Source of the DNA: Agapetus fuscipes
Lineage: Eukaryota > Arthropoda > Insecta > Trichoptera > Glossosomatidae
Assembly (NCBI GenBank): GCA_951799405.1
Contig: OX637340.1
Span: 124,001-188,000, forward strand
Reading direction: 5' to 3'
DNA length: 64,000 nt
In this document: positions 5,131-59,723 of the stretch, one piece after another
How positions within the stretch are numbered: the first letter of the stretch is position 1
How the letters are laid out: every line of letters starts with the position of its first letter
Position numbers and translations under genes: made by a program
Notes under the pieces: model-generated
Database searches by the model: none
Told to the model about the DNA's origin: nothing
The model's input: only the letters and a program-made list of their open reading frames with translations

Positions 5131-5217
5131 AAATAAAAGGCGCCAAATTGATCAAAAGTTTCCAATTTTGACAGTCGCATTTTGGGAAAGATATAGTTAA
5201 TTTTGTGCCTTTTAATT

Positions 5218-13040: not shown

Positions 13041-13334
13041 GCCTAAAGGCTTGATCCACCGTGTTTGAGAAGCAGCAAATATTTCAGACCCTGCATTGAT
13101 ATATTATATTATGAATATCTCTGCTTCAGAAGGTATTACATAATAATAATAAATTTTGAAAAGATTTTTGTGAAACACTGTGGAAATTCATTTTAAAAAA
13201 TTGATTATTTTTCAATAAAAAATTAAAAAATAAAAGAAATTAAAAACTTTGTTTTATTCCACTTTTATTGTTTTTGAGTATGTTACAAACGTTTTCGGAA
13301 TAAGACGAAACCATGGAGAAGGATTTTATACACA

Positions 13335-16447: not shown

Positions 16448-17036
16448 GATGGTTTGAGCATATGGAGAGAATGAATGAGGAAAGACTGACGAAGAAAGTA
16501 TATGTGGCAAGAATGGAAGGGCGTGGGTTCGAATCCCGGCGGAGCACAAAAAATATACCATTTATATTTTCAAATTTGCTCTTCGCTGAGATGAAAAATT
16601 CATAAACCTTTACCAAAGACTGGAGGAAATGAAAGAAGTATGTAAGGAAAGATAGAAATGGCGGTTGATCTGTAATGTTGGCGGCTTGGGTTTATAAAAT
16701 TGGAATTTGTTTTAGTTTTGATGTCCATAGAAATGATTATTTATTGATTTAAATTGTCGTGTATGTTCCTTGACTTATAGGTTGGTATGCGGCTGACCAC
16801 CCATGCTGTAAAAATGGTTCAATTTGCCAATATCACCCCTGTCTCAGGGAAGGACGGCAAGAGTTGCAGGGTGTATGTCCATTTGAGATTTGGTTTTTAT
16901 GTAGTAGGTTCACATGAGGCATGTGCAAGCGCAAACTTGTACGTGTCTGGTTGTGAGAATGCATGTAATGTGAATCTCCAATGTAACATATCTTTGCAAC
17001 TTACATTAGATTAGATTAGAATTGATATAAATCTCT
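16448..17036 (+). mobile_element. RTE-B 3' end, split by SINE2
   Basis: Coding residues like WFEHMERMNEERLTKKVY (16446-16505) break off where a SINE2 fragment sits (16512-16620). RTE-B coding resumes with GGAAATGAAAGAAGTATG, then the full 3' UTR and a GATTAGATTAGA tail. The 3' UTR keeps a 75-codon open frame at 16787-17014. Confidence 0.8.
16512..16620 (+). mobile_element. SINE2 fragment nested in RTE-B
   Basis: From the B box (GGGTTCGAATCCCGGCGG) through the GCTCTTCGCTG motif to the CTTTACCAAAGAC segment. Confidence 0.7.
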
Positions 17037-21536: not shown

Positions 21537-24500
21537 CACTTCTCATCCAGCTGCCGTGGCGTGCGGACATGTCCAACGCTGCTCCGTGTTTTTTATTAAT
21601 TTAAATTACTTAAAGGCATTACTTTGCGATTGAAGTACCTTAATTTGTTCCGCGTGTTTAGTGTCCGTGTTATAAAACAAGAGAATTTTAATTAATTCAT
21701 TGTTTTTGTTGTATTTACGCGTTTTTTTTCCTTCAGAAATAACCACGTGGTGTGGACACGTGGTTATCTAATTTGTAAAATCTATTTTTTTCTCGCTTCT
21801 CTCGTGTTTAACGTTAATTTTAATATCTATGTTGTTTCGCGTTTTAGTTTTAACCTTTATAACAAGAGAATTTGTATTAATTCATTGTTTTTTGTTGTTT
21901 TTTAGGCTTTTTTCTTCATTGGAAATAGCCACGTGGTAACCTAACCTCAATATTCGTTAAGTATTGTGCGTCATTTATTTTTGCTGCTTATTTAAATTCA
22001 GTAGTATTATTTTATTTCTTTTTCGTTCTCTTTTTAACTTCATTATTGATTTCATGTCTCGTGGCCCTTTTTTACTTTTTTGACCACGTGTTTTATTTCA
22101 CCTGGCTGACAACCAGGATATTTTTAGTTGTGTGCAAACTTGCGTCAGTATGGCATTAGTTCACTGTGCTGTGATGTGGGCTCCTGTGGGCAAACGATGA
22201 GATAGTCATGCGAAGGCGCACTAGGGCTGACAATCCTAGTCGCCATGCTGTTGGAGGAGTGTCAGATGGCCCCTGCAGGGTTGCCAAAAGCTTTACCAGG
22301 TACAGTGGGAAACCACAGTGGCCTGGTAAGAGCAGACGTAAGAAAGGAGATGAATGGAATATTGCTACTTTGAATGTAAGAGGTATGAAAAATAAGGAAG
22401 AAGAACTATTGAAAGAGATGAATGAGAGAAAAATTAAAATTTTATGTGTGACCGAAACTAAAATGAAAGGTGAAGGAGAGAAAGTTCTGAGTAATGGAAA
22501 TTTGTTCATTTACTCAGGTGTGAAAGATGGATGTCCTAGACAGGGTGTTGGTGTGATTGTTAGTGAATGTGTGAAGAGCTATATCAGGAATTATGAATGG
22601 ATCTCCCCTAGGATTCTCCTAGTAAGGATCAAGTACGACAGAACGAATTTTCTACTGATAGCATGCTATGCGCCAGTAGATTCAGAATGTATGGAGATTA
22701 AAAATGAATTCTGGGATATGCTTGACGATAAAATCAGAATGAAAGACAAAGAAGAAAAGGTGATTCTGCTTGGTGACATGAACGGATGGGTGGGTAGAAG
22801 AAAGGAAGAGTATGAAAGGGTAATAGGACCAAACGGAAGGGGTGTCATCAATGGCAGTGGGAGACGGCTTGTTGACATGTGTGTGGAGCATGGGATGTTT
22901 GTATCAAATACTTGGTATAAGCATAAAGACGTGCACACATACACGTGGTATGGGCCAAATACTCGCACAGTCATTGACTACATATGTATGGAAGAATGTA
23001 TGAGAGGTGCCATAAGAGATGTCAGAGTCTACCAAGGTATATCCGTGGGCTCAGACCATCATCTCTTGTGTGCAAAAGTAATGATAGGCGAAGTAAAAGA
23101 TAGGAAAAGAACGAAAGTGATTAAGATGAAAAGAGTGAAAGTGGAAAAATTAGATGATGAAAATGTCAGGAATGATTTTGAAGCTGAAGTAAGCCAGATT
23201 TTGAAATCGGATGAATGTAAGGAACTTGTGAAGAATGCATGTGTAGAAAAAATGTGGAAAACATTTAAAACATGTTTGGTTGAAAGCGCAAAGAAAGTAT
23301 GCGGTGAAGTTACGATTGGGCATAAAAAAGGCAATGAATGGTGGAATGATCAGGTTAAACAAGCAGTGAAAGAGAAGAAAGAGAGCTATTTAAAATGGAT
23401 TAATGACAGAAAGAATAAAGTGTTAGAGACTGAATACAAGGCGAAAAAATGGCTAGCGAAGAATGAAGTTCAAATGAGTAAGAGAAGAATGGAAGAAAAA
23501 TTGAGTGAAAGAGCACAGAATGACTTCTCTGACAATAAAAAGATGTTCTGGAGCTGGGTGAGACAAAACAACGACAGTTGTAGGTCCACAACTCCGGGAA
23601 TCAAAAATGTCAGCGGAGACATTCTGTGGAATAAAGACGATGTAAAAAAGAGATGGAAAGAATATTTTAACGAGGTTTTTGGTGAAGAAGAATGTGATTT
23701 AACTGTGAAAGGAGATTATGATGAGGGTAATGTTTTGAAAATATCGAAAGATGAAGTAAGAAAGGTCATAAAGGAATTAAAGAATGGGAAAGCTGCAAGT
23801 GTGGATGGTGTGAGACCTGAGATGATGAAAGCGGGGGGAGAATGTGTGATTGAATGGATGAAAGAGCTTTGCGAATTGTGTGTTAGTGTCAAGGAGGTTC
23901 CATCGGACTGGAGAGAGGCGGTCATTGTGCCAATTTACAAAGGTAAAGGTGACAAAAAAGACTGCCGTAACTTCAGACCGATTAGCCTTCTTAGTGTGCC
24001 AGGTAAAGTGCTATGCAAGATTCTTATCCATAGGGTAAGATTATCCACCCAGGAGAAGGTCTCAGATATACAATCTGGCTTTATGCCGGAAAGAGGTTGC
24101 GTAGACCAGATATTCGCGCTTCGACAGATAGTCGAAAAACAGCTAGCCGTAAATAAAAAGGTCTACGCGGCTTTCGTAGATCTTGAGAAAGCCTTCGACT
24201 CGGTGGATAGAAGTATGATGTGGTGTGTGCTTGAGAGGTATGGTGTGAACAAAGCACTTCTGAACGCGATACGCGCCATCTATCTTAATAGCAGGGCGTG
24301 TGTCAGGGTGGATGGAGAATACAGCGAGTATTTTAATGTGTACAAGGGTGTGAGACAGGGTTGCATAATGAGCCCATGGTTATTCAATATAATCATGGAT
24401 CATTGTGTTAAACAAGCGAATCTGGAAGGGCATGGCATACAGATTGGAGAGAGAAAAGTCGGAGTTCTGCTTTATGCTGATGACGCAGTATTAATTGCTG

Positions 24501-25330
24501 ATTCAGCAGCGGAACTTCAGGCAATGCTCTCTAGTCTGAACCATGCTCTGTGTGTGAACAAGTTGAAAATTAATGCAAGTAAGACGAAAGTACTGATTTT
24601 TGACAGAATGGATGAAAATGAAGAATGCACGCTCATGTTGAATGGTACGAAAGTTGAAATTGTGGATGAATTTAGATACTTGGGAAGTATGTTTGAGAAG
24701 AATGGAAAGATGACAAGAGAACTTGAGAATAGGATGTGTAAGGGCAAGCAAGTGGTCGGTGCAATAGGAAGAATAGCAAAGAACAAGCGATTGACGATGG
24801 ATCTGAGAATGGCGGTACACAATGGCATATTGTTACCGACTTTGATGTATGGAAGTGAAGCATGGACAGTGAATGATAGCGAAATGAGTAAAGTATGTAC
24901 GGTGGAAATGAAGCATTTGAGAAGCATGACAGGAAAAACTCTGAGGGATAGAGTTAGGAATGAATGGGTAAAAAAGGAATGTAATTTGAAAGAGGATGTG
25001 AAAGTTAAGGTACAAAAGAATGTGATGAGATGGTTTGGGCATGTGGAAAGAATGAACGATGATAGACTGACAAAGTATGTATACAAAGAAAGTGTGAAAG
25101 GAAAAAGAGGGAAGGGACGACCGAGAAAAGTATGGAGTGATCAGATTGAGGAGATTGTGAAAGAATGGGATATACAAAGTGAGCGTAAAAGAAGAAAATG
25201 CATGAAAAAGGTGATGGATATGAATGAATTGAAAGAGGTATGTAAGGATAGGAAAAGATGGAGGCAACTCTGCAGAGGCTCTGGCCACCCCTAGCGGAAT
25301 GGCGACAGAGTTACAGTTACAGTTACAGTT
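21537..25330 (+). mobile_element. full-length RTE LINE (RTE-A) with TSD
   Basis: About 3.8 kb: a 5' UTR (21537-22207), one intact ORF, and a short 3' end in TTACAG repeats. ACTGTGT at 21530-21536 and 25331-25337 is the apparent target duplication, and removing the element rejoins a PLE sequence known from 13155-13204. The full length and intact ORF suggest a young insertion. Confidence 0.88.
22208..25294 (+). CDS. RTE-type LINE endonuclease/reverse transcriptase
   Basis: A 1028-residue single-ORF polyprotein. Residues about 50-290 form an APE-type endonuclease: NIATLNVRG, TETK (Glu83), LLGDMNGW (Asp190, Asn192), TYTWYGP, VIDYI and the terminal GSDHH (Asp283, His284). Residues about 510-800 form the reverse transcriptase: VIVPIYKGKGD, NFRPISLL, QSGFMPERG, AAFVDLEKAFD, GVRQGCIMSP and the catalytic YADD (756-759). 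The C-terminal part has SEAWTVND, WFGHVERMNDDRLTK, GRGRPRK-like and VCKDRKRW motifs typical of the RTE clade. It has no gag-like ORF1, no RNase H and no stops or frameshifts. The ATG at 22208 is the first in a frame that leaves a short basic leader before the endonuclease; a downstream start is possible. The enzyme nicks target DNA and primes reverse transcription there. Confidence 0.93.
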   Translation: MRRRTRADNPSRHAVGGVSDGPCRVAKSFTRYSGKPQWPGKSRRKKGDEWNIATLNVRGMKNKEEELLKEMNERKIKILCVTETKMKGEGEKVLSNGNLFIYSGVKDGCPRQGVGVIVSECVKSYIRNYEWISPRILLVRIKYDRTNFLLIACYAPVDSECMEIKNEFWDMLDDKIRMKDKEEKVILLGDMNGWVGRRKEEYERVIGPNGRGVINGSGRRLVDMCVEHGMFVSNTWYKHKDVHTYTWYGPNTRTVIDYICMEECMRGAIRDVRVYQGISVGSDHHLLCAKVMIGEVKDRKRTKVIKMKRVKVEKLDDENVRNDFEAEVSQILKSDECKELVKNACVEKMWKTFKTCLVESAKKVCGEVTIGHKKGNEWWNDQVKQAVKEKKESYLKWINDRKNKVLETEYKAKKWLAKNEVQMSKRRMEEKLSERAQNDFSDNKKMFWSWVRQNNDSCRSTTPGIKNVSGDILWNKDDVKKRWKEYFNEVFGEEECDLTVKGDYDEGNVLKISKDEVRKVIKELKNGKAASVDGVRPEMMKAGGECVIEWMKELCELCVSVKEVPSDWREAVIVPIYKGKGDKKDCRNFRPISLLSVPGKVLCKILIHRVRLSTQEKVSDIQSGFMPERGCVDQIFALRQIVEKQLAVNKKVYAAFVDLEKAFDSVDRSMMWCVLERYGVNKALLNAIRAIYLNSRACVRVDGEYSEYFNVYKGVRQGCIMSPWLFNIIMDHCVKQANLEGHGIQIGERKVGVLLYADDAVLIADSAAELQAMLSSLNHALCVNKLKINASKTKVLIFDRMDENEECTLMLNGTKVEIVDEFRYLGSMFEKNGKMTRELENRMCKGKQVVGAIGRIAKNKRLTMDLRMAVHNGILLPTLMYGSEAWTVNDSEMSKVCTVEMKHLRSMTGKTLRDRVRNEWVKKECNLKEDVKVKVQKNVMRWFGHVERMNDDRLTKYVYKESVKGKRGKGRPRKVWSDQIEEIVKEWDIQSERKRRKCMKKVMDMNELKEVCKDRKRWRQLCRGSGHP

Positions 25331-25503: not shown

Positions 25504-25848
25504 TTAAGACAGTGGAGTGGGATCTATTGGTGGTAGTGGTAAAGAAAGGGGTAGAAAGGTAGATGTGTGGGAGGGAGATGGTGATTTTTGGGGCGGAGCT
25601 AATATTGATAGGAGAGGAGATGTAATGGTAGGAGAACTTTTATTTTTGTGTTTGTTAATTTCTAGTATATCCATTTTTTTTCCTTTTTGGCAGCTATGTA
25701 TTAACTCTAAATTGTCTATATTAAAAGTATGTCCTTCTTCTCTTGCGTGTTCGCCTATTTCCGAGTGAATCAATACATTTTTTATTGCTTTTTTATGTTC
25801 CATAAATCTTTCAGATATTTTTCTACCTGATTGGCCAATGTAGAACAT
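25504..25848 (-). pseudogene. Penelope-like GIY-YIG endonuclease domain
   Basis: The frame continues upstream of 25848 with a segment reading GVYKIKCNNCDMFYIGQSGR, followed by SERFMEHKKAI and SEIGEHAREEGHTF, then a Lys-rich and Pro/Ser-rich tail that ends 29 nt before the hammerhead core. It is close to the copy at 13335-13862, with an internal deletion near ILEINKH. The upstream RT frame (25990-26448) is out of frame with it, and I see a stop and frame change near 25980, so the copy is not functional. Confidence 0.82.
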
Positions 25849-25989
25849 ATCGCAATTATTACACTTTATTTTATAAACTCCACTGTTTTCTTTTTGCGTC
25901 AGCTTTGATTTGTTGTTAAGAATATACTTTTTGATATTAGAGTTAGTATAAAATGCTGCTTTAAAGTTGTCTTCTTTACATACCTATCT

Positions 25990-28115: not shown

Positions 28116-28119
28116 TTAT

Positions 28120-28573
28120 TGTTACGTTTTTCCTGGGTTCTTTTAATTAAAACACAAGTTTAACACAAGTTAGCCATACAGTTTATTTACACAGACTTTC
28201 TTACAATAGATTTATTTTTAACAGACTTATTCTAACAGATTTATTTTAACACACTTATTTATTTCGTACAGATTACATTTATTTTACACCTTATTGGTCG
28301 CCCTGGCAACTAGATACTCCTCTGTGTGAGTGCTTCGAAGACTGACCCGCTTCAGCCCATTGTCGCCCTTCTTATAGCGGAACCTAGGGGCCATTCCAGC
28401 CTGCCCTAGAAACTTCCACTACCACAGTTGTATAGACGATTCTGGACATATTTATTTCATGAAGAGTCCATTTCCTACCTACATACACACCTTACAATTA
28501 CAATCGTCTGGGCCAGAACATTCTCTCAAAACACACGTACACCAATAAACATCTACCAGTGTATTTCGTTACA
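28120..28573 (-). repeat. 3' LTR of the DEK element
   Basis: 454 bp, TGTAAC...GTTACA-type termini in element orientation. The stop codon of the ORF directly abuts it. Its sequence is unlike the 516-bp LTR of the gypsy element at 51966-59719. Confidence 0.92.
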
Positions 28574-30274
28574 TTATCCCCCCCTTAGACTGTTCCGCCC
28601 CGGAACAGTCTTTTCTTTAAGAAGGTACGGGCAGTTTGACCCACAGTTGCATCCAGTGGTCAGGAAAAATGACGTTCCACGGAATTTTCCCCTTAGGGTT
28701 TTGCCCGTCATTGCTGGCTGGTGTGGGGGGGGGTGCTTTCCTCTTGGCGGCCGGCATGGGCGCCTTTCCTTGGCTGGGGGCACCGCTTTGCGTCCCCGGG
28801 CGGCCACCGCTCCTAGGCCCCGCTTGCTCGCCGGCGTCAAAGGATCAGAATCCTTGGTCGTCGGAGCCGCTCTCCTGCTCGGAAGCGAAGTTCTCACTCT
28901 CGCTCTCGTCCTCTGACTCGCTGAGTTGCTTCCTGCCGCGCCATGCTTGGGTCGTCGCTTCTGCTTGCTCTGCTTGGCTGAGCCCCTGCGGGCGGGGGCG
29001 CGGCGCCTGCGGGAGGGAGCGCCCCCCTCCCCCACTGACGGGTCAAAGTCAGAGTCCGCCTCCTGTCCGGAGCCACTCGGGTTGTACGAGCCATCTGAAT
29101 CCCCTAATTCATCCCTGCTGACTTTGGGTCCCCGCACTTTGGTTTCCGGATCTCTTTCATACTCCTCGTTAGAGTAACCTCTCTTGACAATAGCAGCAGC
29201 GGACCTTCTGGGCCTGCCTCCCGTGGCCTCGCCGCGGTCAGTCACCGGCCTCTCCTTCATCAGCCCCCTGGCGTGCGAGGAGACCTGCTTTGGCAGCAGC
29301 AGGAAGCCCATTACCCTGCTGACCAGCTCCGTGGGCGCGCCCCTCTTGTCCAAGCCCAGCTTCTCGCACAGCGTCCGCAGCTGCTTGGGCTCCAGCTTCT
29401 GCACCTCCTCCAGCTTGGCCTTGTGCTCAGGCGTGTCCTTCTCAAACTCGTAGCCCTTGAACTTCTTTTTGTTGCGCTTGATGAGGTTCGTGCGGCACAA
29501 TTGATTGTACCGGAACTTGAGGTCCTCCATCTTGAACCTGGAGATGGCCACCTCCACGTCGGGGATGTGGTCGATGGGGATGCCCCGGCCCGCGGGCACG
29601 GGCACCGGCGGCTCCACGGCCTTCTTCTTCTTGGGAGCCTCCTCCACGGCCTCCTCCGCCTTCTTCTTGGGCGCGGGCTTCTTCTTCACACTGTTGGCCT
29701 TCTTGGCCTTGCCCTTCTTGTCCTTGGCGTCCTCCTCCTTGGCGTCCGTCTCCTCCTTCGCATCCTTGTCAGCCTTCACCTCGGCCGAGTCACTCTTGCC
29801 GTTTTCAGCCGACTTGACATCATCTTTGTCATCTTTGCTGTCAGCTGCGTCCTCAGCCTTGAGCTGGCCGTTGTTTTTGGCCTTCAGGTCTCCCTTCCCC
29901 AGTTTCTGAGACGACTCATCCTCAGTTGACATATCGGCCTTTTTGTCATCCTGATTATCACTTAATTTTACACTATCAGTGTCCTCCGACATTTTTAAGG
30001 CTAGGTTTTTAGCCCTCTCCTCCTTCCAACCAGCTAGGTCTTCCCTCAAGCTCTTGAAGTTGGCAGCCATCTTTGTTTTAAACTCTTCCACGGCTCGCTC
30101 GCGGTCCCCTCCAGACGCCATGACAAAATATGCCGGGTCTTCGCCTGCCTGTTCCAAGGCCTCTATGAGGCGTGCTTGTAAGGCTGCCTTTCCTCCTGAG
30201 GTCTCCAGGTCCCTCTCCAGAAGCTCATTCTTAAGCTCATAGGCTTTGAGGTCCTTGATGTTCACCTTAGCCAT
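28574..30274 (-). CDS. SAP/gag-DEK fusion protein encoded by an LTR retrotransposon
   Basis: A 566-residue intronless ORF. Residues 1-58 (MAKVNIKDLKAYELKNELL onward) are almost identical to the gag start of the gypsy polyprotein at 53702 and contain a SAP DNA-binding motif. From about residue 95-115 the sequence becomes an acidic/Lys-rich segment. Residues about 229-329 match the DNA-binding pseudo-SAP/SAP core of DEK, a chromatin protein: GYEFEKDTPEHKAKLEE and LRTLCEKLGLDKRGAPTELV, ending FLLLPK, are characteristic. A basic Ser/Arg-rich region follows. The C-terminal DEK_C domain is absent. Residues about 534-566 (FFLTTGC to KTVPGRNSL) again match the gypsy C-terminus, but two zinc ligands of its CCCH finger are changed (Thr534, Leu552). 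A frameshift within the captured part is likely near 28930. The central part is very GC-rich. Expression would be from the LTR. Confidence 0.9.
   Translation of the reverse strand: MAKVNIKDLKAYELKNELLERDLETSGGKAALQARLIEALEQAGEDPAYFVMASGGDRERAVEEFKTKMAANFKSLREDLAGWKEERAKNLALKMSEDTDSVKLSDNQDDKKADMSTEDESSQKLGKGDLKAKNNGQLKAEDAADSKDDKDDVKSAENGKSDSAEVKADKDAKEETDAKEEDAKDKKGKAKKANSVKKKPAPKKKAEEAVEEAPKKKKAVEPPVPVPAGRGIPIDHIPDVEVAISRFKMEDLKFRYNQLCRTNLIKRNKKKFKGYEFEKDTPEHKAKLEEVQKLEPKQLRTLCEKLGLDKRGAPTELVSRVMGFLLLPKQVSSHARGLMKERPVTDRGEATGGRPRRSAAAIVKRGYSNEEYERDPETKVRGPKVSRDELGDSDGSYNPSGSGQEADSDFDPSVGEGGAPSRRRRAPARRGSAKQSKQKRRPKHGAAGSNSASQRTRARVRTSLPSRRAAPTTKDSDPLTPASKRGLGAVAARGRKAVPPAKERRPCRPPRGKHPPPHQPAMTGKTLRGKFRGTSFFLTTGCNCGSNCPYLLKEKTVPGRNSLRGG
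28588..28610 (-). repeat. 10-bp hairpin before the polypurine tract
   Basis: GACTGTTCCG and CGGAACAGTC pair perfectly around a 3-nt loop, inside the codons of the shared C-terminal peptide. The gypsy element has the same hairpin with one mismatch at 59167-59189. Confidence 0.75.
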
Positions 30275-30645
30275 TTTTTATTTTAACAAAAATTTAAATT
30301 TACTTCAAAATAATTTACTTCAAAACAAATTATTTTACAAAAAAATATATTTTTAAATTTCAAATAATGATATTAGATAATGATTATTTACTTTGCTTCG
30401 CCAGATCGGCTAATGAGTATTTACTAACACTATCACAATATTATTAACACGTTATTTATGTACACTTCAATCAAATTTTTAGCGGGTAACCACACGATCG
30501 TTTTTAATTCAAGTTTAACCAGTTTTATTTAAAACTTTTTTTTTTTTATTCATCAGTTTTTATTATGTTGTCCACATATATTTTTCAAAAGTCTCAAGCA
30601 CAGTTTTTACTTGGTACTTGGTTTTAAACTTCACACCGACACCAT
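30275..30645 (-). promoter_or_regulatory. leader of the DEK element with PBS-like site
   Basis: Non-coding A/T-rich leader between LTR and ORF. Next to the LTR (minus strand, about 30629-30644) is TGGTGTCGGTGTGAAG, in the position of the tRNA primer-binding site and resembling the TGGCGTCAGGTGCGG of the gypsy element. The primer tRNA is not identified. Confidence 0.65.
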
Positions 30646-31099
30646 TGTTACGTTTTTCCTGGGTTCTTTTAATTAAAACACAAGTTTAACACAAGTTAGC
30701 CATACAGTTTATTTACACAGACTTTCTTACAATAGATTTATTTTTAACAGACTTATTCTAACAGATTTATTTTAACACACTTATTTATTTCGTACAGATT
30801 ACATTTATTTTACACCTTATTGGTCGCCCTGGCAACTAGATACTCCTCTGTGTGAGTGCTTCGAAGACTGACCCGCTTCAGCCCATTGTCGCCCTTCTTA
30901 TAGCGGAACCTAGGGGCCATTCCAGCCTGCCCTAGAAACTTCCACTACCACAGTTGTATAGACGATTCTGGACATATTTATTTCATGAAGAGTCCATTTC
31001 CTACCTACATACACACCTTACAATTACAATCGTCTGGGCCAGAACATTCTCTCAAAACACACGTACACCAATAAACATCTACCAGTGTATTTCGTTACA
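30646..31099 (-). repeat. 5' LTR of the DEK element
   Basis: 454 bp, apparently identical to 28120-28573 by eye. It should supply the promoter for the fusion ORF. Confidence 0.92.
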
Positions 31100-31499
31100 T
31101 TATGAATCATAATCGATTTTGTAACATGTGCAGAAAAGTTGTTCTTTTTAAATTTTCGTGACGCGTAGTCAATGCTATTTTAAATCGTTGGCTGCTACGC
31201 AGAGGGTGCGAATAGTGCTCTCGCGTAGAACATTGTCGGCTATCTACGGAAGCGGATAGCAACGACACTCGCTACGATACTAGCAGACATATGAATGGGA
31301 AATATCTATCGAATGGGACAACGTTACCTTGAAACTTCTCCTCGGAATAGTCCACAATAAGGAGGCAGATGGAGAAACTGATACCTATTGGGCGAACGGT
31401 TATTAGAAGTTACATTTGGTGTAAGTATTGGAATACGGGTATATTCAAAATTTCAATACATAGACGGAAATTTAAAGATTTAAGCTATTTTTAGCAAAG

Positions 31500-36289: not shown

Positions 36290-36905
36290 AAGAGTAATGA
36301 AGGGCAGGTGTGTACTGGGTGCCACAGCTTGTATCGCCAAAAATCAAAACATATCTAAAAATGCTCGATTGGCGGTACGCAGTGGCATACTTTTACCCAC
36401 CTTGATGTATGGAAGCGAGGCCTGGACGGTGAATGAAAGTGAAATTAGTAAAGTCCATACTGTTGAAATGGACTTTCTAAGACTGACTCTGGAGGAAATA
36501 AAAGAAGTATGTAAGGATAGAAAGAAATGGCGGTTGATCTGTGATGTTGGCGGCTGGGGTTTGGTAAAGTAAAATTGGTTTTATGATTTAGTTTTTTATG
36601 TCCATGTATATATTGTTATTTATTGATTTAAAAAAAATGTAATTTGTCATGTATGTTCCTTGACTTATAGGTTGTTATGCGGCTGACCACCCATACTGTA
36701 AAAAATTGGTTCACTTTGCCAATGTCACCCCTGTTTCAGGGAAGGACGGCAAGAGTTGCAAGGCTTATTTCATTTGAGATTGGGTTTTTATATTGTAGGT
36801 CCACATGCGGCATGTGTTTGCGCGAAATTATACATATCTGCTTGTGGGAATGCATTTAATATAAATCTTAAATGATATATATCTTTGCAGCTTAGATTAG
36901 ATAAG
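36290..36905 (+). pseudogene. RTE-B LINE with internal deletion
   Basis: The coding part (ARLAVRSGILLPTLMYGSEA, then AWTVNESEISKVHTVEMDF) jumps directly to LTLEEIKEVCKDRKKWRL, losing the WFGHM and GRPRK segments. The 3' UTR and GATTAGATAAGATTA tail follow. Confidence 0.82.
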
Positions 36906-37156
36906 ATTATCTAAAAAAAAATGTACACGGCGACAAACTGTTTCATAAATAACTTATATGTAATGCACCTTCTTCAGTGCTACACAGTACTGTGTTCGCT
37001 TAACAATAATGAAGCAGCGCTCATTGTCCACACAAGGGTAGCACACTAGAACAAGGTGCAGGGATGACCAAACAGAAACAACGCTTAGGGGAGGAGCGAT
37101 ACCATCTCTAATTGTCTGATAAACGCCAACAGCGAATAAACAACGGACACCGGAGC

Positions 37157-37668
37157 GATAGAAGCGGCGAAGTGGCGGTGCAGGGATGAGTCAAGTAGGA
37201 ATGAAGAGATAGAAGCGGCGAAGTGGCGGTGCAGGGATGAGTCAAGTAGGAATGAAGAGATAGAAGCGGCGAAGTGGCGGTGCAGGGATGAGTCAAGTAG
37301 GAATGAAGAGATAGAAGCGGCGAAGTGGCGGTGCAGGGATGAGTCAAGTAGGAATGAAGAGATAGAAGCGGCGAAGTGGCGGTGCAGGGATGAGTCAAGT
37401 AGGAATGAAGAGATAGAAGCGGCGAAGTGGCGGTGCAGGGATGAGTCAAGTAGGAATGAAGAGATAGAAGCGGCGAAGTGGCGGTGCAGGGATGAGTCAA
37501 GTAGGAATGAAGAGATAGAAGCGGCGAAGTGGCGGTGCAGGGATGAGTCAAGTAGGAATGAAGAGATAGAAGCGGCGAAGTGGCGGTGTAGGGATGAGTC
37601 AAGTAGGAATGAAGAGATAGAAGCGGCGAAGTGGCGGTGCAGGGATGAGTCAAGTAGGAATGAAGAGA
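37157..37668 (+). repeat. 51-bp minisatellite, ten copies
   Basis: The unit begins GATAGAAGCGGCGAAGTGGC and is repeated ten times with only one or two substitutions in the copies read. Because 51 is a multiple of three, the minus strand stays open (37108-37653) as THPCTATSPLLSLHSYL repeats. That frame has no other coding feature and is taken as a by-product. The array sits between two RTE-B tails. Confidence 0.95.
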
Positions 37669-37764
37669 TTTATGTGTAACTAGAATAAAATTGTAATTAG
37701 TGAAGCAAATTTAAAGGTCGTGATAAAATAAATTAATGTGTTAATTCAGTAAAGAGTTGTTCAG

Positions 37765-38028
37765 TTGTTCCTTGACTTATAGGTTGTTATGCGGCTGACC
37801 ACCCATAATGTAAAAATTGGTTCACTTTGCCAATGTCACCTCTGTTTCAGGGAAGGACGGCAAGAGTTGCAAGGCTTATGTTCATTTGAGATTGGGTTTT
37901 TATATTGTAGGTCCACATGCGGCATGTGTTAGCGCGAAATTATACATATCTGCTTGTGGGAATGCATTTAATATAAAACTTAAATGATATATATCTTTGC
38001 AGCTTAGATTAGATTAGATTAGATTAGA
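37765..38028 (+). mobile_element. RTE-B 3' UTR copy
   Basis: From GACTTATAGGTTGTTATGCG to a (GATTA)n tail. It is very close to the copy at 36660-36905, sharing the GGTTGTTATGCGG variant. Confidence 0.8.
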
Positions 38029-46881: not shown

Positions 46882-46920
46882 TTACAAACGTTTTCCACCT
46901 AGTAGGTCATCATCAGGTAT
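46882..46920 (-). ncRNA. hammerhead-like motif, PLE type (F), partly decayed
   Basis: Core CTGATGA and helix III AACGTT are intact, but the last base of stem II is changed (GGTG instead of GGTC before GAA). Confidence 0.4.
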
Positions 46921-47176: not shown

Positions 47177-47237
47177 GAACTATATGAAGTATAGTTATGA
47201 TAGAAGGTATGATATGAACGTTTGTAATTTGTTCAAA

Positions 47238-51610: not shown

Positions 51611-51965
51611 TTAAAATCTTTAAAAAGAAGAATATTTTTTTGCCACAGAAAGCACTTAGATAATATTTTGGGCCGCAAAGGTTCTATGTGACTGCCCTAT
51701 GTAATGTACATGGTAGCTTCCTGGATAATAAATGAACAGGTTCGTGTAGGAATGTATGTACGCTGAAGCGATGCTTACATAATGACGCACAGGGACTAAT
51801 AGTTGATTAAAATAGATTAATAAAATAAAATAAAATACTAATAAAAGCTCATGTGAATTGTAACAAAGAAGTTTTTTATTTTAATCTATTAAAATGAACT
51901 TTCACGAAGTAACTGCCAAAAACCTAGATAATGGGACTAATAGTTATTTGATGTCAAATTAATAC

Positions 51966-52481
51966 TGTTATGTAAATATAAATATTGAAATAAGTATGGG
52001 TAGTTATAGTGTTATGTAAATATAAATATTGAAATAAGTATGGATAGTTATAGTTATAAGAATCCTCAAAAGTATTGGTAGGTAAGATCGATAATTATGT
52101 ATAAGTGTAGAATTCTCTAGGCTAAGTAGGTATTTGTTATAATTATAGGGATACTGTATTGCATTGGTAGGTAGGATTTTGGTTGTGTCTAGGTAGTACG
52201 TGAAACATCGAGAAGTAATAATTACTCTGGAACCGTCTGGCGACTTTAGTTCTGGATCATACTGCTCTGAAGAGTATAAAGGTGCGAATGGCCTGCAGAG
52301 CGGGCCAGTATCATAGAGACTTACAAACACATCGAAGTCATCTGATCAGTGAACCAAAACCAAGTGGAATAATCGAGAAAGTAGTGTGAAAATAAATTTT
52401 GTAACTGTGTAAAATAAATAACTATTGAAGAAGACCTGTGTATTTTTAATTTGAAGACAATTGAACCCTAATTTCGTAACA
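51966..52481 (+). repeat. 5' LTR of the gypsy element
   Basis: 516 bp, TGTTATG...CGTAACA. Its first 44 bp (51966-52009) are repeated in tandem at 52010-52053 with one substitution, in both LTRs. Confidence 0.95.
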
Positions 52482-52483
52482 AT

Positions 52484-52498
52484 TGGCGTCAGGTGCGG
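52484..52498 (+). promoter_or_regulatory. primer-binding site
   Basis: TGGCGTCAGGTGCGG starts two bases after the LTR and has the TGG expected opposite a tRNA CCA end. The tRNA is not identified. Confidence 0.7.
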
Positions 52499-52945
52499 AA
52501 TTGTCAAGAAAAATTAAGATCTTCTGTCTAAAAATAAATAAAATAAATTAAATAGTGTTAAAATGAACTTTATTCAAATTGAACTTTGTGTGAACTGACT
52601 TTTGTGAAAACAAGTGTTTAAATAAATTTTTGTTAAAAGAAAAGACGCAAAAGCAAGTTGCTTATAAATTCTGGAACATCATATGGAACATAATTCTGGA
52701 CATAACATAATGACTATTTTACCGCATTGAGAAAGTCATCAAATTGGACCATAGTTTTTTTATTATTGTGTGTGATTAAAAAAATAAAATAAATAAATAA
52801 AAAAATCTTGAAAAATATTACAAAAGAACGTTCCAGATTCATCGAGAAAAAGTTTTTGAATAACTATCCTTTGTTTACAAGTGTGTGAATGTACATTAAA
52901 TACCTACCTGTGTGTTTGAAAGACTTGAGACGAAATAAATAATTA

Positions 52946-53499
52946 CACCGCCGGACAAAAAAAATTACGAATTTACCTGCTACCGCACCGCTTGACTTTA
53001 CTGAACCCTTTTTCTAAGAAATCCTTTATCGATACCTCTTTCTTTTGTTTGATAAATTAAGGACACATAGTGTCCTTAATTTTGTTATAAAAAATAAAGG
53101 TGAATTCACTAAGTATTAAATATTTTTAAATTTTATAAATATGTTTAAATTTTAAATACTTTACATACTTTAAATTTTAGTAATTTAAAATAAAGCGATA
53201 CGAACCTACTTCTTGAATATTAATTACAAAAAAACATGTCTTTTATTATTCCACCACAAACACTGGACCTTAAATGAACCGTTATGGATTTCTAATTTTC
53301 GGGTAATCTGATACCTGATATATAATGCCAATTTCTAACTACAATTCATGAGTAAGTTTTTATATTTTAACCTTGAAGTAAGGAGTAGTCATCACATATG
53401 TCAAATAATGCAAAAAAACTAATTAAATATCAAGAATAATTAATTTTATGTCAATTTTACTTTTTTTTTAGGACTCGTAATTTTTTTTGTCCGGGGGTG
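52946..53499. mobile_element. TA-flanked MITE (mariner-like) in the gypsy leader
   Basis: Ends CACCGCCGGACAAAAAAAAT and, inversely, CACCCCCGGACAAAAAAAAT form inverted repeats of about 25 bp with one mismatch. TA lies on both sides (52944-52945, 53500-53501). 554 bp, no ORF. Confidence 0.8.
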
Positions 53500-53701
53500 T
53501 ATGTACTATCAGACATTATTATGTTAAAAATATTGGTGATTTAAAAATAAATATTAAAAGACAGTACCTACCAATCAGTGTAATCAGATAAATTATTATT
53601 TTGCTAAAGTACGTATTCAAAACAGCTATATATATAAAACTCAAAACTTGTATTAAATAAATTTAAAAATATTTTTGTTTTGAAGTAAATTTTGAAAAAA
53701 A

Positions 53702-56700
53702 ATGGCAACCAAAGTGAACATCAAGGACCTCAAAGTCACTGAGCTTAAAAATGAGCTTCTGGAGAGGGACCTGGAGACCTCAGGAGGGAAGGCGGCCTTA
53801 CAGGCACGCCTCATGGAGGCCTTAGAACAGTCAGGCGAAGACCCGGCATATTTTGTCATGGCGTCTGGAGGGGACCGCGCCTTGGACGAGCTAAACCTCA
53901 GCATCACCGGAAACTTCACTTCCATGGAGGAAAAGCTGAAAGTGGAGATGGCTGACAACGCCAAGACCCTGGAGGAGAAGATGACCACCAACCTGAAGGA
54001 AGTGGTGACCGACCTGAAGGTGGAAATGGCTGACAACGCCAGGAATCTGGAGGAAAAGGTGTCCCGAAATCTCACAACCCTGAAAGGAGAAATGGAAGAG
54101 AAGATGACAGCCCTGAAGGGGGAAATGGAGACTCGTATATCAAGCCTGGAGGACCGTCTGCGTGCCGAGCTGGCCGACAAGGGCCAGATGGAGTCCACCA
54201 GGATATCCCCCAAAGGCCTTCACGACGAGATCGAACAGGGATGCTCAACTCCAACCAGGGTCACTAGAGGGGATGACGACCCTTCGCTGGCGAAGCACAA
54301 CCTTCCGACCTTCGACGGGAAGACGTCGTGGGAGGAGTATTTGACCCTCTTTGAGACGGCTGCCATGATGGGAGCCTGGAGCCAGCAGAAGAAGGCTTCG
54401 GTTCTCAGCCTGTCGCTCCGAGGAGACGCTCTCAGGGTTCTGCAGGCCATACCCCTGGACAACCGTGGTGACTTTGGGCAGCTGAAGCAGCGCTTGGATA
54501 TGCGCTATGGCCACAAGTGCTTGGAGCAGCTGTACAAGTCACAGCTGAACACAAGGGTGCAGAAGCCCAACGAGAGCCTCCAGGAGTTTGAGATGGACAT
54601 CGCCCGCCTGGTACGAGACGCTTACCCGACAGCCTCCGACGACATCTGTGAGAGCTTGGCAGTGGATAAGTTCCTGAACGGGTTGCGGGAATGGGAGACG
54701 CAACAAGCCGTAAAACTGGCCCATCCCAAGGCTTTGAACGAGGCGCTCAGCCAAGCCCTCGAGTTTGAGGCTGTCAAACAGTCCATCAGGGGCCACGCCA
54801 GGGTTCGTGCAGTCGAGGCAGAGGAGGTCAAGCTACCTACAACCGAGGAGCTAATTGAAAAAGTGCTGGAACGTCTGAGACCTCGAAGACGAGACCCACG
54901 CTGCTGGAACTGCGGACAGCTGGGCCACCTTAGCACCAAGTGTCCCAAGCCTCAAAAACCCAGAAAACAGGCTGCGGAAAAACTAGAAAGGGTTAATGGG
55001 AAGGGGCAACCGTTGACCCACGCTGGAGAGGCCCTGAAATCTGCTGCTACTGTCGCAACCGTGAGAGGAAAAGCCAGCAGCATTTTTATCAATGGCATAA
55101 TAGATGGAGTAACTCGTGAACTACTGGTGGACACGGGAGCAACCAGGACAATTCTGAGACGCGACATAGTGGCACGAGGTAAGCAGATTGCACCAACAAA
55201 GTGGTCTCTGCACACCGCCACGGGAGAGTCAGCACAGGTGTATGGGGAGACGATTGCCACCTTCCAAATTGGCAGCACCACTTTTGATCATCGGACGTTG
55301 GTGGCCAACATTGAAGAAGACGTTATATTGGGAATGGACATACTGGACAGATTTGGGTGCAGTTTAAATTTAAAGAAAGGGTCCATTAAAATTGGAAATG
55401 AAGAAGTCATCCTGCAAAGACGGAAAGAACTGGCTGCACGTGTTATCCTAGCCAAGAATACCGAAGTGAAGGGGCGATCCGAGATGATAGTGAGTGCCCG
55501 CCTGGATTCCAGTAGTACAAATGACCAAATCTGTATGATAGAACCGGAGAACATGGACAATGTTAACAAAGGAGTCATGGTGGCAAGAACAGTGATTCGC
55601 GCAAAGGAGACCATTCCTGTCAAGATCATGAATGTGAACAGCTACCCAGTTAAAATGAATGAAGGTTTTGTTTTGGGCAGATGTGAGAGGATAACTTCCA
55701 TTGTGCAACAGATGACAAACATGTCATGCGAAGGAAACAAATTGTCAACACAATTGGAAGCCCTGGTCCACGACGCTTCCCAAGGTCTAACCGAGGAAAA
55801 CAAACGGAGAGTGAGGAGTTTGATCTGCCGCTACCAGAACATTTTCGAGGACTCTAATGGCCGTCTGGGAAGAACCAAGGTAGTGCGACATAGCATAGAC
55901 ACCGGAGAAGCGAGACCAATAAAACAGGCTCCAAGAAGACTACCCTTTGCAAAGCGGGAAGAAGCTGACAAGATCATCAAAGACATGAGCAAGGATGGCA
56001 TCATAGAACCATCAAGTAGCCCTTGGACATCCCCGGTGGTACTGGTGAAAAAGAAGGATGGTACCACGAGATTTTGTGTGGACTACAGACTGCTCAACGA
56101 TGTTACGAAAAAGGATAGTTACCCTCTGCCAAGGATTGACGACACCTTGGACACATTGGCAGGATGCACCATTTTTTCCACATTGGACCTGAAAAGTGGC
56201 TACTGGCAAGTTGAATTGGATGCCAAAGATAAGGAGAAAACTGCATTCTCGACTGGATCTGGACTTTGGCAGTTCACCGTGATGCCATTTGGCTTATGCA
56301 ATGCCCCCGCCACGTTTGAAAGGCTGATGGAGAATGTGCTGCGAGGACTATCATGGGAAACCTGCCTGGTATACTTGGATGACATAATCATCCTGGGAAA
56401 GGACTTCAACCATCAGTTGAGAAATCTGGAGCAAGTTTTCGGGCGACTACAAGACGCTGGACTGAAGCTCAACCCGAAAAAGTGTAACCTGTTCAAGAAA
56501 CAAGTAAATTACCTGGGACACATAGTTTCTCAACGTGGAGTTGAAGTTGACCCTGCCAAAATTAAGGCAGTAAGAGACTGGCCCGTGCTGAAGGACAAAC
56601 ATGAAACTAGGAGTTTCCTGGGGCTGTGCACTTATTACAGGAGGTTTGTGCCAAGATTTGCGGACATTGCAAAACCGCTCACCAAGCTTACGGAAGAAAA

Positions 56701-59203
56701 CACTCGCTTCCATTGGAGTGATTCCTGCGCACAAGCATTTGAAGAGCTTAAGGGAAGATTAACAAGTGCCCCCATCTTGAGCTACCCACGAAAAGATGGA
56801 AAGTTCATCCTGGATACCGACGCTAGTAATGTGGGGATAGGAGGCGTCCTTTCCCAAATACAGGATGGGCATGAGACTGTTCTGGGTTACTTCAGTAAAG
56901 TGCTTTCCAAGCCGGAACGAAATTATTGCGTGACCAGACGAGAGCTTCTTGCCGTGATAAAATCAGTGGAACACTTTCGCAAATACTTGTACGGGAGAAA
57001 ATTCACACTACGGACTGATCATGCTGCACTGGTTTGGCTTCTGAAATTCAAAAACCCAGAAGGGCAAGTGGCTAGATGGATTGAAAGGCTCCAGGAGTAT
57101 GATTATGACTCCGAACATAGACCTGGCACGCTTCATCGAAATGCGGATGCATTATCCAGACGACCATGCGCCAGTGACTGCAAACATTGCAGCAAGATGG
57201 AGGACAAGGTAGCAATTGTCCAAAGGACGACCACCGAAGATGAGGACTGGCAAGATGAAAAATTGGCGCAAGACCAACTGAATGATCCGGACTTGAAGTA
57301 TGTGATGGAATGGGCGCGAGAAGGAGAAAGGCCAACCTGGGAAAAACTCGCCCCCTTATCACCAACTGTCAAGGCTTATTGGGCTCAATGGGGATCCATA
57401 GTGATAGAAGGAGGGTTTCTGAAACGAAAGATCGAGAAGGAAGACGGCACACTTAGAAGAAAGCAAACCCTCGTTCCGAGGAGCCGAGTACCGGAAATCC
57501 TTGGACTGCTGCATGGAGGAACTTCTGGAGGACATCTAGGCGTTAAGAAGACGCTGGAGAAAGTGAAAGAGCGATTTTACTGGATCAACTGCAGCGAAGA
57601 CGTCAAAGATTGGTGTCGAAAATGTGTAACCTGTGCAACGGCCAATGGACCGCAAAGGAAAAGGCGAGCACCAATGCGTCAGTACAATGTTGGCAGCCCC
57701 TTTGAAAGAATTGCCATCGACATAGCTGGCCCATTTCCTACAACTGAGAAGGGTAACAAGTACATCATGGTGGTGATGGATTACTTCAGCAAGTGGGTGG
57801 AAGCTTACTCAATCCCTAACCAAGAGGCCGTAACCGTGACTGAAGTTCTAGGTACCGAATTTATCAGCAGGTTTGGCGTACCCCTGGAATTACATTCTGA
57901 TCAGGGAAGGAACTTTGAAGCTGCTATCTTCCAGCAAATGTGTGAGCGGCTAGGGATCTACAAGACCAGGACCACTGCGCTACATCCACAGTCTGATGGA
58001 ATGGTGGAAAGGATGAACCGTACCGTGGGGAGGTACTTAGCCAAAGTAGTGTCCAGCCATCAGCGGGACTGGGACCGACATCTGCCTTTGTTCTTATTGG
58101 CTTACCGGTCGGCTGTTCAGGAAACGACGAAGAAGACTCCCAGCAGCATACTGTTTGGGCGAGAAATGCGACTTCCTTGTGATCTCAAATTTGGCTGCAA
58201 ACCAGGTGAAGACCTAGCCGGAGAAGACTATGTGACAGACCTTCGCAGGAGGCTGGATGACATCCATGATCAGGTCCGCATGAACATCGGGGAAGCCAGC
58301 GATCAAATGAAGGAGCGCTATGACACCAGAGCTGACAGCATGGGGTACAAAGCTGGTGACTGGGTGTGGCTTTTTGACCCCAAGAGGCGCCAAGGATACT
58401 GTCCGAAACTTCAGCGTTCCTGGGACGGGCCGTACGAGATCTTGGAGCGCATCAACGATGTGGTCTACCGCATAAAAAAGAGACCAAACGGAAAACCAAG
58501 GGTCGTGCACTACAATCGCCTCTCACCATACCTAGGCGAAAATGATGACCAACCAGCCCAAAAAGTACGACAGTGCGTCGCATCCGAAAGATCACCAGCC
58601 TTTGAGACGTTTTGGGAGAACGCGAAGGCAGGGCAGAAGTTTCGCCATGGAGTGACCACAGAAATCCACAAGGACTTATTTGAGGTCACTAGGGACCACA
58701 CACTGGCATGCAGTGTACCGGAAGATCTAGATATGTCTAGAGGAATTGCACGGGTCTTCCGATACAAATTCGGAGAACCGCAACCCTCGAGCAGCCCGCA
58801 AGGAAGAGCTCTGAGACTACCGAAGGGGCGTCAACAAGCATACTGCCTGGTTGTCCCGGATTCCAGCAACCTGGAAGAGGACTACAAGGCATTGTGGGAC
58901 GGCCTTGTTGAGCTGCGTGACTACATGTTGGAGGATCAGCAGGCGCGTCTGGCAATACCGAAGATGGGTGGCGGCCGCGCTAATCGAGACTGGCGGATAA
59001 TCCGGAGTATGATTGAAGCAGTGTTCTCGGGAGTCGGCATCAGCGTCATGGTGTGCTGCGAGCAAGCGCAGCCGAGAGCCAGTGGGGAGAAATCCGTGGA
59101 CTGCCACTTCTTCCTGACCACAGGGTGTCGACGTGGATCAGCATGTCCCTACCTACACAGAGTCAAGACTGTTCCGGGACGAAACAGTCTAGGTGGGGGG
59201 TAG
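53702..59203 (+). CDS. gypsy gag-pol polyprotein with SAP, macro-like and CCCH domains
   Basis: 1833 residues in one frame. SAP motif (about 5-42), coiled coil (about 65-160), gag/capsid-like part (190-370), zinc knuckle CX2CX4HX4C (401-414), protease LLVDTGATRTIL (474-485), RT (FCVDYR; YLDD at 891-894), RNase H (FILDTDAS), integrase with its HHCC finger (H1271, H1278, C1308, C1311) and D1340/D1400/E1436, then GPY/F (1576). After this, residues about 1645-1790 resemble a macro domain of the TARG1/OARD1 type: EIHKDLFEV, LDMSRGIARVFRYKFG, QQAYCLVVPD and the glycine loop IPKMGGG. The end is a CX7CX5CX3H finger (1801-1819). The stop abuts the 3' LTR. The ATG at 53702 is the first in this frame and starts the peptide shared with the DEK fusion ORF. 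Intact throughout; gag and pol need no frameshift. Confidence 0.95.
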   Translation: MATKVNIKDLKVTELKNELLERDLETSGGKAALQARLMEALEQSGEDPAYFVMASGGDRALDELNLSITGNFTSMEEKLKVEMADNAKTLEEKMTTNLKEVVTDLKVEMADNARNLEEKVSRNLTTLKGEMEEKMTALKGEMETRISSLEDRLRAELADKGQMESTRISPKGLHDEIEQGCSTPTRVTRGDDDPSLAKHNLPTFDGKTSWEEYLTLFETAAMMGAWSQQKKASVLSLSLRGDALRVLQAIPLDNRGDFGQLKQRLDMRYGHKCLEQLYKSQLNTRVQKPNESLQEFEMDIARLVRDAYPTASDDICESLAVDKFLNGLREWETQQAVKLAHPKALNEALSQALEFEAVKQSIRGHARVRAVEAEEVKLPTTEELIEKVLERLRPRRRDPRCWNCGQLGHLSTKCPKPQKPRKQAAEKLERVNGKGQPLTHAGEALKSAATVATVRGKASSIFINGIIDGVTRELLVDTGATRTILRRDIVARGKQIAPTKWSLHTATGESAQVYGETIATFQIGSTTFDHRTLVANIEEDVILGMDILDRFGCSLNLKKGSIKIGNEEVILQRRKELAARVILAKNTEVKGRSEMIVSARLDSSSTNDQICMIEPENMDNVNKGVMVARTVIRAKETIPVKIMNVNSYPVKMNEGFVLGRCERITSIVQQMTNMSCEGNKLSTQLEALVHDASQGLTEENKRRVRSLICRYQNIFEDSNGRLGRTKVVRHSIDTGEARPIKQAPRRLPFAKREEADKIIKDMSKDGIIEPSSSPWTSPVVLVKKKDGTTRFCVDYRLLNDVTKKDSYPLPRIDDTLDTLAGCTIFSTLDLKSGYWQVELDAKDKEKTAFSTGSGLWQFTVMPFGLCNAPATFERLMENVLRGLSWETCLVYLDDIIILGKDFNHQLRNLEQVFGRLQDAGLKLNPKKCNLFKKQVNYLGHIVSQRGVEVDPAKIKAVRDWPVLKDKHETRSFLGLCTYYRRFVPRFADIAKPLTKLTEENTRFHWSDSCAQAFEELKGRLTSAPILSYPRKDGKFILDTDASNVGIGGVLSQIQDGHETVLGYFSKVLSKPERNYCVTRRELLAVIKSVEHFRKYLYGRKFTLRTDHAALVWLLKFKNPEGQVARWIERLQEYDYDSEHRPGTLHRNADALSRRPCASDCKHCSKMEDKVAIVQRTTTEDEDWQDEKLAQDQLNDPDLKYVMEWAREGERPTWEKLAPLSPTVKAYWAQWGSIVIEGGFLKRKIEKEDGTLRRKQTLVPRSRVPEILGLLHGGTSGGHLGVKKTLEKVKERFYWINCSEDVKDWCRKCVTCATANGPQRKRRAPMRQYNVGSPFERIAIDIAGPFPTTEKGNKYIMVVMDYFSKWVEAYSIPNQEAVTVTEVLGTEFISRFGVPLELHSDQGRNFEAAIFQQMCERLGIYKTRTTALHPQSDGMVERMNRTVGRYLAKVVSSHQRDWDRHLPLFLLAYRSAVQETTKKTPSSILFGREMRLPCDLKFGCKPGEDLAGEDYVTDLRRRLDDIHDQVRMNIGEASDQMKERYDTRADSMGYKAGDWVWLFDPKRRQGYCPKLQRSWDGPYEILERINDVVYRIKKRPNGKPRVVHYNRLSPYLGENDDQPAQKVRQCVASERSPAFETFWENAKAGQKFRHGVTTEIHKDLFEVTRDHTLACSVPEDLDMSRGIARVFRYKFGEPQPSSSPQGRALRLPKGRQQAYCLVVPDSSNLEEDYKALWDGLVELRDYMLEDQQARLAIPKMGGGRANRDWRIIRSMIEAVFSGVGISVMVCCEQAQPRASGEKSVDCHFFLTTGCRRGSACPYLHRVKTVPGRNSLGGG
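59167..59189 (+). repeat. hairpin before the polypurine tract
   Basis: GACTGTTCCG/CGAAACAGTC pairs at nine of ten positions around a 3-nt loop; counterpart of the perfect hairpin at 28588-28610 in the DEK element. The G-rich polypurine tract AGGTGGGGGG follows at 59191-59200. Confidence 0.7.
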
Positions 59204-59719
59204 TGTTATGTAAATATAAATATTGAAATAAGTATGGGTAGTTATAGTGTTATGTAAATATAAATATTGAAATAAGTATGGATAGTTATAGTTATAAGAA
59301 TCCTCAAAAGTATTGGTAGGTAAGATCGATAATTATGTATAAGTGTAGAATTCTCTAGGCTAAGTAGGTATTTGTTATAATTATAGGGATACTGTATTGC
59401 ATTGGTAGGTAGGATTTTGGTTGTGTCTAGGTAGTACGTGAAACATCGAGAAGTAATAATTACTCTGGAACCGTCTGGCGACTTTAGTTCTGGATCATAC
59501 TGCTCTGAAGAGTATAAAGGTGCGAATGGCCTGCAGAGCGGGCCAGTATCATAGAGACTTACAAACACATCGAAGTCATCTGATCAGTGAACCAAAACCA
59601 AGTGGAATAATCGAGAAAGTAGTGTGAAAATAAATTTTGTAACTGTGTAAAATAAATAACTATTGAAGAAGACCTGTGTATTTTTAATTTGAAGACAATT
59701 GAACCCTAATTTCGTAACA
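59204..59719 (+). repeat. 3' LTR of the gypsy element
   Basis: 516 bp, apparently identical to 51966-52481, including the one-base difference between its two 44-bp tandem units. Confidence 0.95.
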
Positions 59720-59723
59720 ATAC

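Follow-up and report, generated by a model that had tools for sequence, protein, structure and literature searches.

Can a retrotransposon of an insect take up the gene of a host chromatin protein, keep it in frame and multiply with it, and of what use might the gene be to the element? The question is raised by a locus in the caddisfly Agapetus fuscipes (assembly GCA_951799405.1, contig OX637340.1, positions 124,001 to 188,000 of the forward strand), a stretch of 64,000 nucleotides that we call the window. At window positions 28116-31103 there is an element with long terminal repeats (LTRs) whose open reading frame (ORF) joins the start of gag, a coding sequence of the chromatin protein DEK and the end of pol. 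With high confidence, as regards both identity and origin, we read it as a member of a non-autonomous Ty3/gypsy-type family that acquired its DEK sequence by transducing spliced mRNA from the DEK gene of its own host.

Structure of the element and its reading frame

Positions 28120-31099 hold a complete, minus-strand LTR element whose LTRs have the ends TGTAACG...CGTAACA; the element is a recent insertion. The initial annotation had described a 454-bp LTR pair flanked by a TTAT target site duplication (TSD), and both were found. It had also described a polypurine tract and a primer binding site (PBS): a G-rich tract is indeed present beside the 3' LTR, but the start of the sequence after the 5' LTR can only be called PBS-like. 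The features are as follows, the last line giving a related element in the same window.

28116..28119, no strand: left TSD (TTAT), the same 4 bp as at 31100-31103
28120..28573, minus strand: 3' LTR of 454 bp, reading TGTAACG...ACGTAACA in minus-strand orientation, the same as the 5' LTR at 454/454 bases
28574..28590, minus strand: polypurine tract adjoining the 3' LTR and overlapping the ORF end with its TAA stop (from the sequence)
28574..30274, minus strand: single long ORF, Gag-DEK-Pol tail, 566 amino acids (aa) (from the ORF listing)
28574..28717, minus strand: retroelement 3' tail, the last pol codons, with a degenerate CCCH-like end ...FFLTTGCNCGSNCPYLLKEKTVPGRNSLRGG (from nucleotide identity and tblastn of the autonomous ORF to related copies)
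28718..29992, minus strand: captured DEK coding sequence, host exons 1-9, intronless and in frame with gag (from blastn to host exons)
29993..29999, minus strand: CTTAAAA beside the gag-DEK junction, bases in common with the DEK 5' untranslated region, where they stand just upstream of the host DEK ATG
29993..30274, minus strand: Gag N-terminus with SAP (aa 6-41) and a long helix (aa 56-98, modelled) (from Pfam, nucleotide identity and the model)
30275..30645, minus strand: leader, beginning next to the 5' LTR with a PBS-like sequence (ATGGTGTCGGTGTGAAG) (from the sequence)
30646..31099, minus strand: 5' LTR, 454 bp (from the LTR-pair comparison)
31100..31103, no strand: right TSD (TTAT), the same 4 bp as at 28116-28119
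51963..59721, plus strand: related, autonomous-looking Ty3/gypsy element, LTRs 51963-52483 and 59201-59721, 99.8% identical

The retroelement parts of the ORF resemble the element at 51963-59721, with 92% nucleotide identity over 183 bp at the gag start and 75% over 134 bp between the 3' tail and its pol end. This relative has one 1835-codon stop-to-stop gag-pol frame (53696-59203) that contains SAP, CCHC, protease, reverse transcriptase (RT), RNase H and integrase. Since gag start and pol tail match a relative in which RT and RNase H precede integrase, the DEK element is, judged by its sequence, a non-autonomous Ty3/gypsy member, in agreement with the gypsy lineage named at the outset. The SAP domain of its Gag part is clear (Pfam PF02037, E 2.4e-9), and a protein search with aa 1-108 gave a single match, a Gag-like protein (E 2.5e-7) that carries SAP and PNMA domains. 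Pfam finds no pol domain in the 566-aa ORF, so the assumed loss of pol holds. As to env, the element strand contains no second long ORF, and Pfam finds no env-like domain in 6/8 other element ORFs of at least 60 aa, antisense ORFs of 83 and 89 aa lying outside this search. At the end of its pol the relative has a CCCH-like zinc finger (Pfam zf-CCCH, E 0.005, short of the cut-off), an unusual feature for a pol C-terminus.

The central part of the ORF matches DEK. In a PDB search aa 227-331 correspond to the core of human DEK (2jx3, E 1.2e-11), and DEK proteins of Lepidoptera can be aligned with the ORF, at about 40% identity, from aa 95, where they have their first methionine, up to about aa 525. 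The six named DEK protein matches all come from moths and butterflies, among the 7996 candidates scored, those sharing the most words with the query. A structure model of the ORF is mostly disordered (mean predicted local distance difference test, pLDDT, 51.9); it contains a SAP-like fold at aa 291-320 (pLDDT 92-93), with the pseudo-SAP part of DEK modelled at low confidence. The four best matches of a fold search were DEK-nucleosome chains, with a probability of 1.00 and weak E values (0.04-0.26). The central domain was thus rightly called DEK by sequence, with folds pointing the same way. The proposed order of gag start, DEK and retroelement C-terminus stands as well, but the restriction to a DEK core does not: the capture begins at the first methionine of DEK. 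By Pfam, the DEK_C domain (PF08766) is absent from the element ORF. A chance likeness to DEK is ruled out by the sequence matches and by the identity to host exons described below. Among the 7, 5 and 1 proteins from three protein searches, no gag-DEK fusion of another species was named or evident.

The parent gene

A DEK_C profile search of the genome pointed to three places. The one on contig C11 corresponds to the final exon of DEK, and two DEK proteins matched neither of the remaining places. Upstream of the C11 exon, nine exons match the element ORF by blastn, seven of them at 92-95% identity, the acidic exon 3 at 74% and exon 4 at 82%, the latter two with gaps. The eight introns between exons 1-9 are all GT-AG (the exon 4 acceptor being picked as the one that keeps the frame), and the joined exons are open for 506 codons. 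None of these introns occurs in the element, as the initial annotation had claimed, and the separate intron-containing gene that it thought worth seeking exists. The DEK part of the element, which takes the place of most of gag-pol, extends from the DEK start codon to the exact splice donor of exon 9; through the loss of 1 nt in this exon, the last DEK codons are read in the pol frame.

Because seven of nine host exons are 92-95% identical and other insect DEKs are far less alike, the exon comparison leaves little doubt that the DEK of the element derives from the DEK gene of this genome's lineage. The same identities, set against 54-58% to moth and butterfly DEKs over element aa 225-400, rule out a capture from a distant species, and the intron-bearing gene on C11 rules out that the element is the only DEK gene of the species. 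The host gene itself is unevenly conserved: compared with its counterparts in moths and butterflies, the core segment encoded by exon 5 has an unusually low identity of 52-54%, the last exon with the DEK_C end one of about 91%.

A family of copies

The 20-mer across the gag-DEK junction occurs 252 times in the genome, a count possibly inflated by duplicated assembly stretches, and its reversed control 0 times; a search for more copies, suggested by the initial annotation, thus makes the window locus one of a family. In an LTR search the best 40 of 1088 candidates were scored, all near-identical, and DEK was present in 30/30 LTR loci cut out, some of them from the same copy. We fetched 27 longer stretches, so that with the window copy 28 were examined. 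Both LTRs stand in one orientation in 26 of these; in L048 the 5' LTR is truncated and a further, inverted LTR is present, and the stretch of L055 holds only an LTR. Matching TSDs flank 24 of the 26 (not L034 and L035), all of the form RTAN, and the LTR pair is identical over 454 bases in 24 of the 26, L047 having one gap and L049 a truncated 5' LTR. An assembly artefact, which would have explained the LTR pair away, is ruled out by these 26 two-LTR copies in separate flanks of their own, 24 with matching duplications.

A genome search with a moth DEK protein gave a similar picture. Among the best 67 of 1309 candidates, those that were scored, 62 have no stop within the match, and 12/12 that were read carry LTR sequence, with the LTR of one copy, L058, only 77% alike. 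The family was amplified by transposition after the capture of DEK. Seven copies (L031, L034, L041, L043, L044, L049 and L051) contain a large in-frame tandem duplication of about 100 codons in the basic C-terminal part of DEK, which marks the copies with ORFs of 665-668 aa; the copies look mosaic.

Origin of the fusion

In a tree of the host gene and 31 element copies, L058 (C1:18071619) is the first branch; the host is the only outgroup, and a single capture is therefore beyond test by the tree. L058 has a longer Gag coil than the window type and carries the host sequence CAGAGCTCTTAAAAATG at its 5' junction, and at its 3' junction exon 9 leads straight into the C-terminal part of pol, at residue 1697 of the 51963-59721 relative. 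The 19-mer of its 5' junction is found in exactly two places of the genome, the host DEK gene and L058. Both junctions lie at host splice sites, the 5' junction at the acceptor before the ATG exon and the 3' junction at the exon 9 donor. The 1-nt deletion in exon 9, by which DEK was brought into the pol frame, is common to L058 and the window type. Among the loci L001-L069, some of which overlap, 35 match the exon 9 motif, namely L058 and 34 others, all of them, L058 included, at the shorter length that the deletion leaves; the other 34, having no motif match, were left uncounted. The window type looks derived from an L058-like form by deletions on both sides. Separate captures for L058-L061 were considered as well; the common end point in exon 9 and the common 1-nt deletion speak for one capture.

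As both ancestral junctions fall exactly on DEK splice sites, we favor a chimeric spliced transcript as the probable origin of the founder. The ends of this transcript would have come from element sequences that lay upstream of the DEK gene and within it, the gag of an element being joined to DEK exons 1-9 and these to the pol end of a nearby element; reverse transcription would then have given the founder copy. One observation speaks against it: in the 20 kb read at the host DEK locus there is no long element remnant, only short repeats, 80-142 bp in length. In the genome 35 places match the L058 pol end, one of them L058 itself, three at 91% (C33:22259281, C8:14402 and C31:8256339) and 31 at 72-80%.

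Nearly as likely, and close to an even chance in our estimate, is template switching during reverse transcription between genomic RNA and a co-packaged DEK mRNA, a process invoked for LTR-mediated duplication (PMC8277862). It is favored by microhomology at both junctions, because the 51963-59721 relative has CAG on the pol side of the 3' junction where host exon 9 ends in CAG, and L058 has CAG at the 5' junction as the host has just before the exon. However, template switching alone does not predict that both ancestral junctions lie on host splice sites, and the chimeric spliced transcript does account for this.

Selection on the fused frame

The full ORF is present in 24/26 copies, at lengths of 544-668 aa; L042 is without leader and start, and L052 is frameshifted. 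Gap lengths are divisible by three in 11/12 cases in the ORF and in 3/25 in the leader (Fisher p 4.6e-6; 25 copies with L042 excluded, the ORF alignment also without L038 and L054). The gaps were counted as distinct intervals, which vary with the alignment and need not each be an event of its own. From this pattern it is clear that the ORF stayed in frame while diversifying.

Replacement/silent ratios were obtained for 22 copies (24 aligned minus L038 and L054). By segregating sites they are 0.51 for gag, 0.55 for the acidic part, 0.34 for the core, 1.38 for the C-terminal part and 0.72 overall; by pairwise means 0.46, 0.38, 0.83, 1.78 and 0.86, respectively. Up to the VGEGG motif, host and window copy differ by a silent divergence (dS) of 0.143 and a replacement divergence (dN) of 0.034, giving a dN/dS (omega) of 0.24; omega is 0.09 between host and L058 and 0.27-0.67 in 12 element-only pairs. 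The 31 element copies show 42 silent and 71 replacement changes up to the same motif, with silent changes above their neutral share (p = 0.0004, 0.005 and 0.03 at transition bias kappa 1, 2 and 4). Among five element-only pairs tested, the window copy with L058, the window copy with L068, and L058 with L066 favor constraint, the last of these not at kappa 4. We thus take purifying selection on the frame to be real but moderate, and relaxed at the C-terminal end.

Several points weigh against a conserved and useful Gag-DEK family. The pairwise mean ratios of 0.83 for the core and 0.86 for the ORF indicate only modest purifying selection, and the C-terminal part of DEK has a ratio above 1 (1.4-1.8). 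The codon tests weaken under transition bias, and for two of the five pairs (the window copy with L061, and L061 with L066) constraint is not significant. In L038 and L054 (2/26) the end of the core is missing together with the conserved stretch behind it, yet both possess the common LTRs. The copies were chosen by likeness to the window LTR, which biases the sample to young copies, and the inflation that the junction count may contain belongs here as well.

Mobility and possible functions of Gag-DEK

Autonomy takes a protease, RT, RNase H and integrase of an element's own, and by sequence comparison the DEK element carries none of these. RT and integrase were not found in the fetched DEK copies when compared with the autonomous ORF; among the fetched loci a match to this ORF that starts within residues 200-1750 occurs only in L058, where it covers just the C-terminal residues 1697-1768. 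Since RT and integrase are missing from the fetched copies, we infer that the DEK copies move in trans, using the reverse transcriptase and integrase of autonomous relatives.

What, then, might Gag-DEK do? The kept frame suggests that the protein has a use, and a role in chromatin would explain the frame. Tentatively, we rank chromatin targeting or anti-silencing first among the possible functions, ahead of an inert passenger and of a replacement nucleocapsid. Gag-DEK would act in the nucleus through the nucleosome- and DNA-binding fold of DEK and would either loosen silencing at element copies or guide particles to chromatin. DEK binds nucleosomes, as the DEK-nucleosome structures named in the fold search illustrate, and overexpressed Dek has been described to de-repress heterochromatic silencing in Drosophila (PMC2936522). 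A bolder version, which we regard as speculative and somewhat doubtful, is that the stolen host protein binds germline nucleosomes and opens or marks chromatin for the element's own copies, and would thus be an anti-silencing gene of an animal LTR element.

It might also be possible, if rather unlikely, that DEK is inert cargo whose intact look goes back to a few very recent source copies, the Gag-DEK protein being unneeded. There are no substitutions between the LTR pairs of the 26 copies, and open ORFs in single copies are therefore expected from youth alone; the relaxed C-terminal region of DEK and the loss of part of the core in L038 and L054 fit such a passenger too. Against it stand the contrast between ORF and leader gaps and the silent excess among the 31 copies.

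Less probable still is a replacement for part of Gag, with the basic, DNA/RNA-binding DEK standing in for the zinc knuckle of the nucleocapsid. Gag-DEK would then join the particles of an autonomous relative and package its own RNA, and effects on chromatin would be secondary. DEK does occupy the place, flanked by Gag coil and pol tail, that the zinc knuckle and enzymes take in the relative, and SAP/coil and a pol tail were retained; yet the remaining Gag was lost as well, and the acidic N-terminal part of DEK, presumably a poor RNA binder by its composition, has the lowest pairwise ratio of the ORF (0.38). A domesticated gene family, spread by LTRs and now of use to the host, for instance in defence against other elements, would agree with the conserved frame and with the antiviral defence proposed for accessory domains of retrotransposon polyproteins (PMC6338049), but is very improbable given that the copies examined are young, that each lies inside its own LTRs (24/26 with their own duplication) and that the junction is present 252 times.

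Other features of the window

The remaining sequence contains further repeats and reading frames. A non-LTR retrotransposon at 22175-25294 has a 1039-codon frame with endonuclease and RT domains. Related ORF pieces at 13278-13862 and 25504-25983, in inverted orientation and 85% alike in DNA, include a stretch that looks GIY-YIG-like by eye and are possibly Penelope-like. At 5197-5628 a single-exon, H2A-like histone ORF ends in SQEY and by eye resembles H2A.X. An array of ten 51-bp units at 37157-37669, 99% alike, can be read through in several frames of both strands. Many copies of a repeat about 256 bp long, about 84-97% alike, are present, at 2489-2745, 4138-4393, 16765-17027, 36654-36909, 37766-38021, 46918-47180 and 62276-62530.

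Comparison with known systems

In oncogene-transducing retroviruses a host gene is fused to gag, pol is lost and propagation depends on a helper. The initial annotation had likened the locus to these viruses, and as far as the layout goes (gag joined to a host gene, pol lost) the likeness stands. It does not extend to a retrovirus, as we are dealing with a germline retrotransposon family of Ty3/gypsy type, with no env-like domain detected by Pfam in the ORFs searched. We know of no bearing of the tumour role of DEK in vertebrates on the element. VANDAL DNA transposons encode the anti-silencing protein VANC. Should Gag-DEK counter silencing, the likeness would lie in this proposed working only, an element-encoded protein directed against silencing; the class of element and the protein are different.

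Maize Bs1, a further LTR element with host gene segments, has a low copy number. Capture of host genes by LTR elements is established from Bs1 and from surveys in rice and sorghum (PMC13317346), and is mentioned in general terms elsewhere (PMC8232201). According to the description of Bs1, three transductions took place and the chimeric gene is transcribed and translated, no segment being full-length (PMC13317346). Unlike Bs1, the DEK element carries one chromatin gene complete but for its C-terminal end, has 252 exact junctions and has kept its frame. In animals, duplication of mRNAs by LTR elements is known with an amplified family in Drosophila, CG17604_r, which is alike in that an LTR element duplicated a host mRNA and later transposition amplified the copy; the account of it contains no in-frame gag-host-pol fusion (PMC8277862). 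In the DEK element, by contrast, the fusion ORF is in frame and an intermediate, L058, survives.

Among open-licence papers, judged by titles and the starts of abstracts, we found no report of a DEK capture. New, to our knowledge, are the nature of the cargo, the fusion of Gag, DEK and Pol in one open frame, the number of copies and the survival of an intermediate. One genome holds the DEK gene that was captured, an intermediate form and hundreds of copies descended from a single capture, and with all three together it is possible to follow capture, trimming, recombination and selection as successive stages. Since the cargo is a nucleosome-binding protein that relieves heterochromatic silencing in flies when overexpressed, this family moreover permits a direct test of whether mobile elements take chromatin factors from their hosts to evade silencing.

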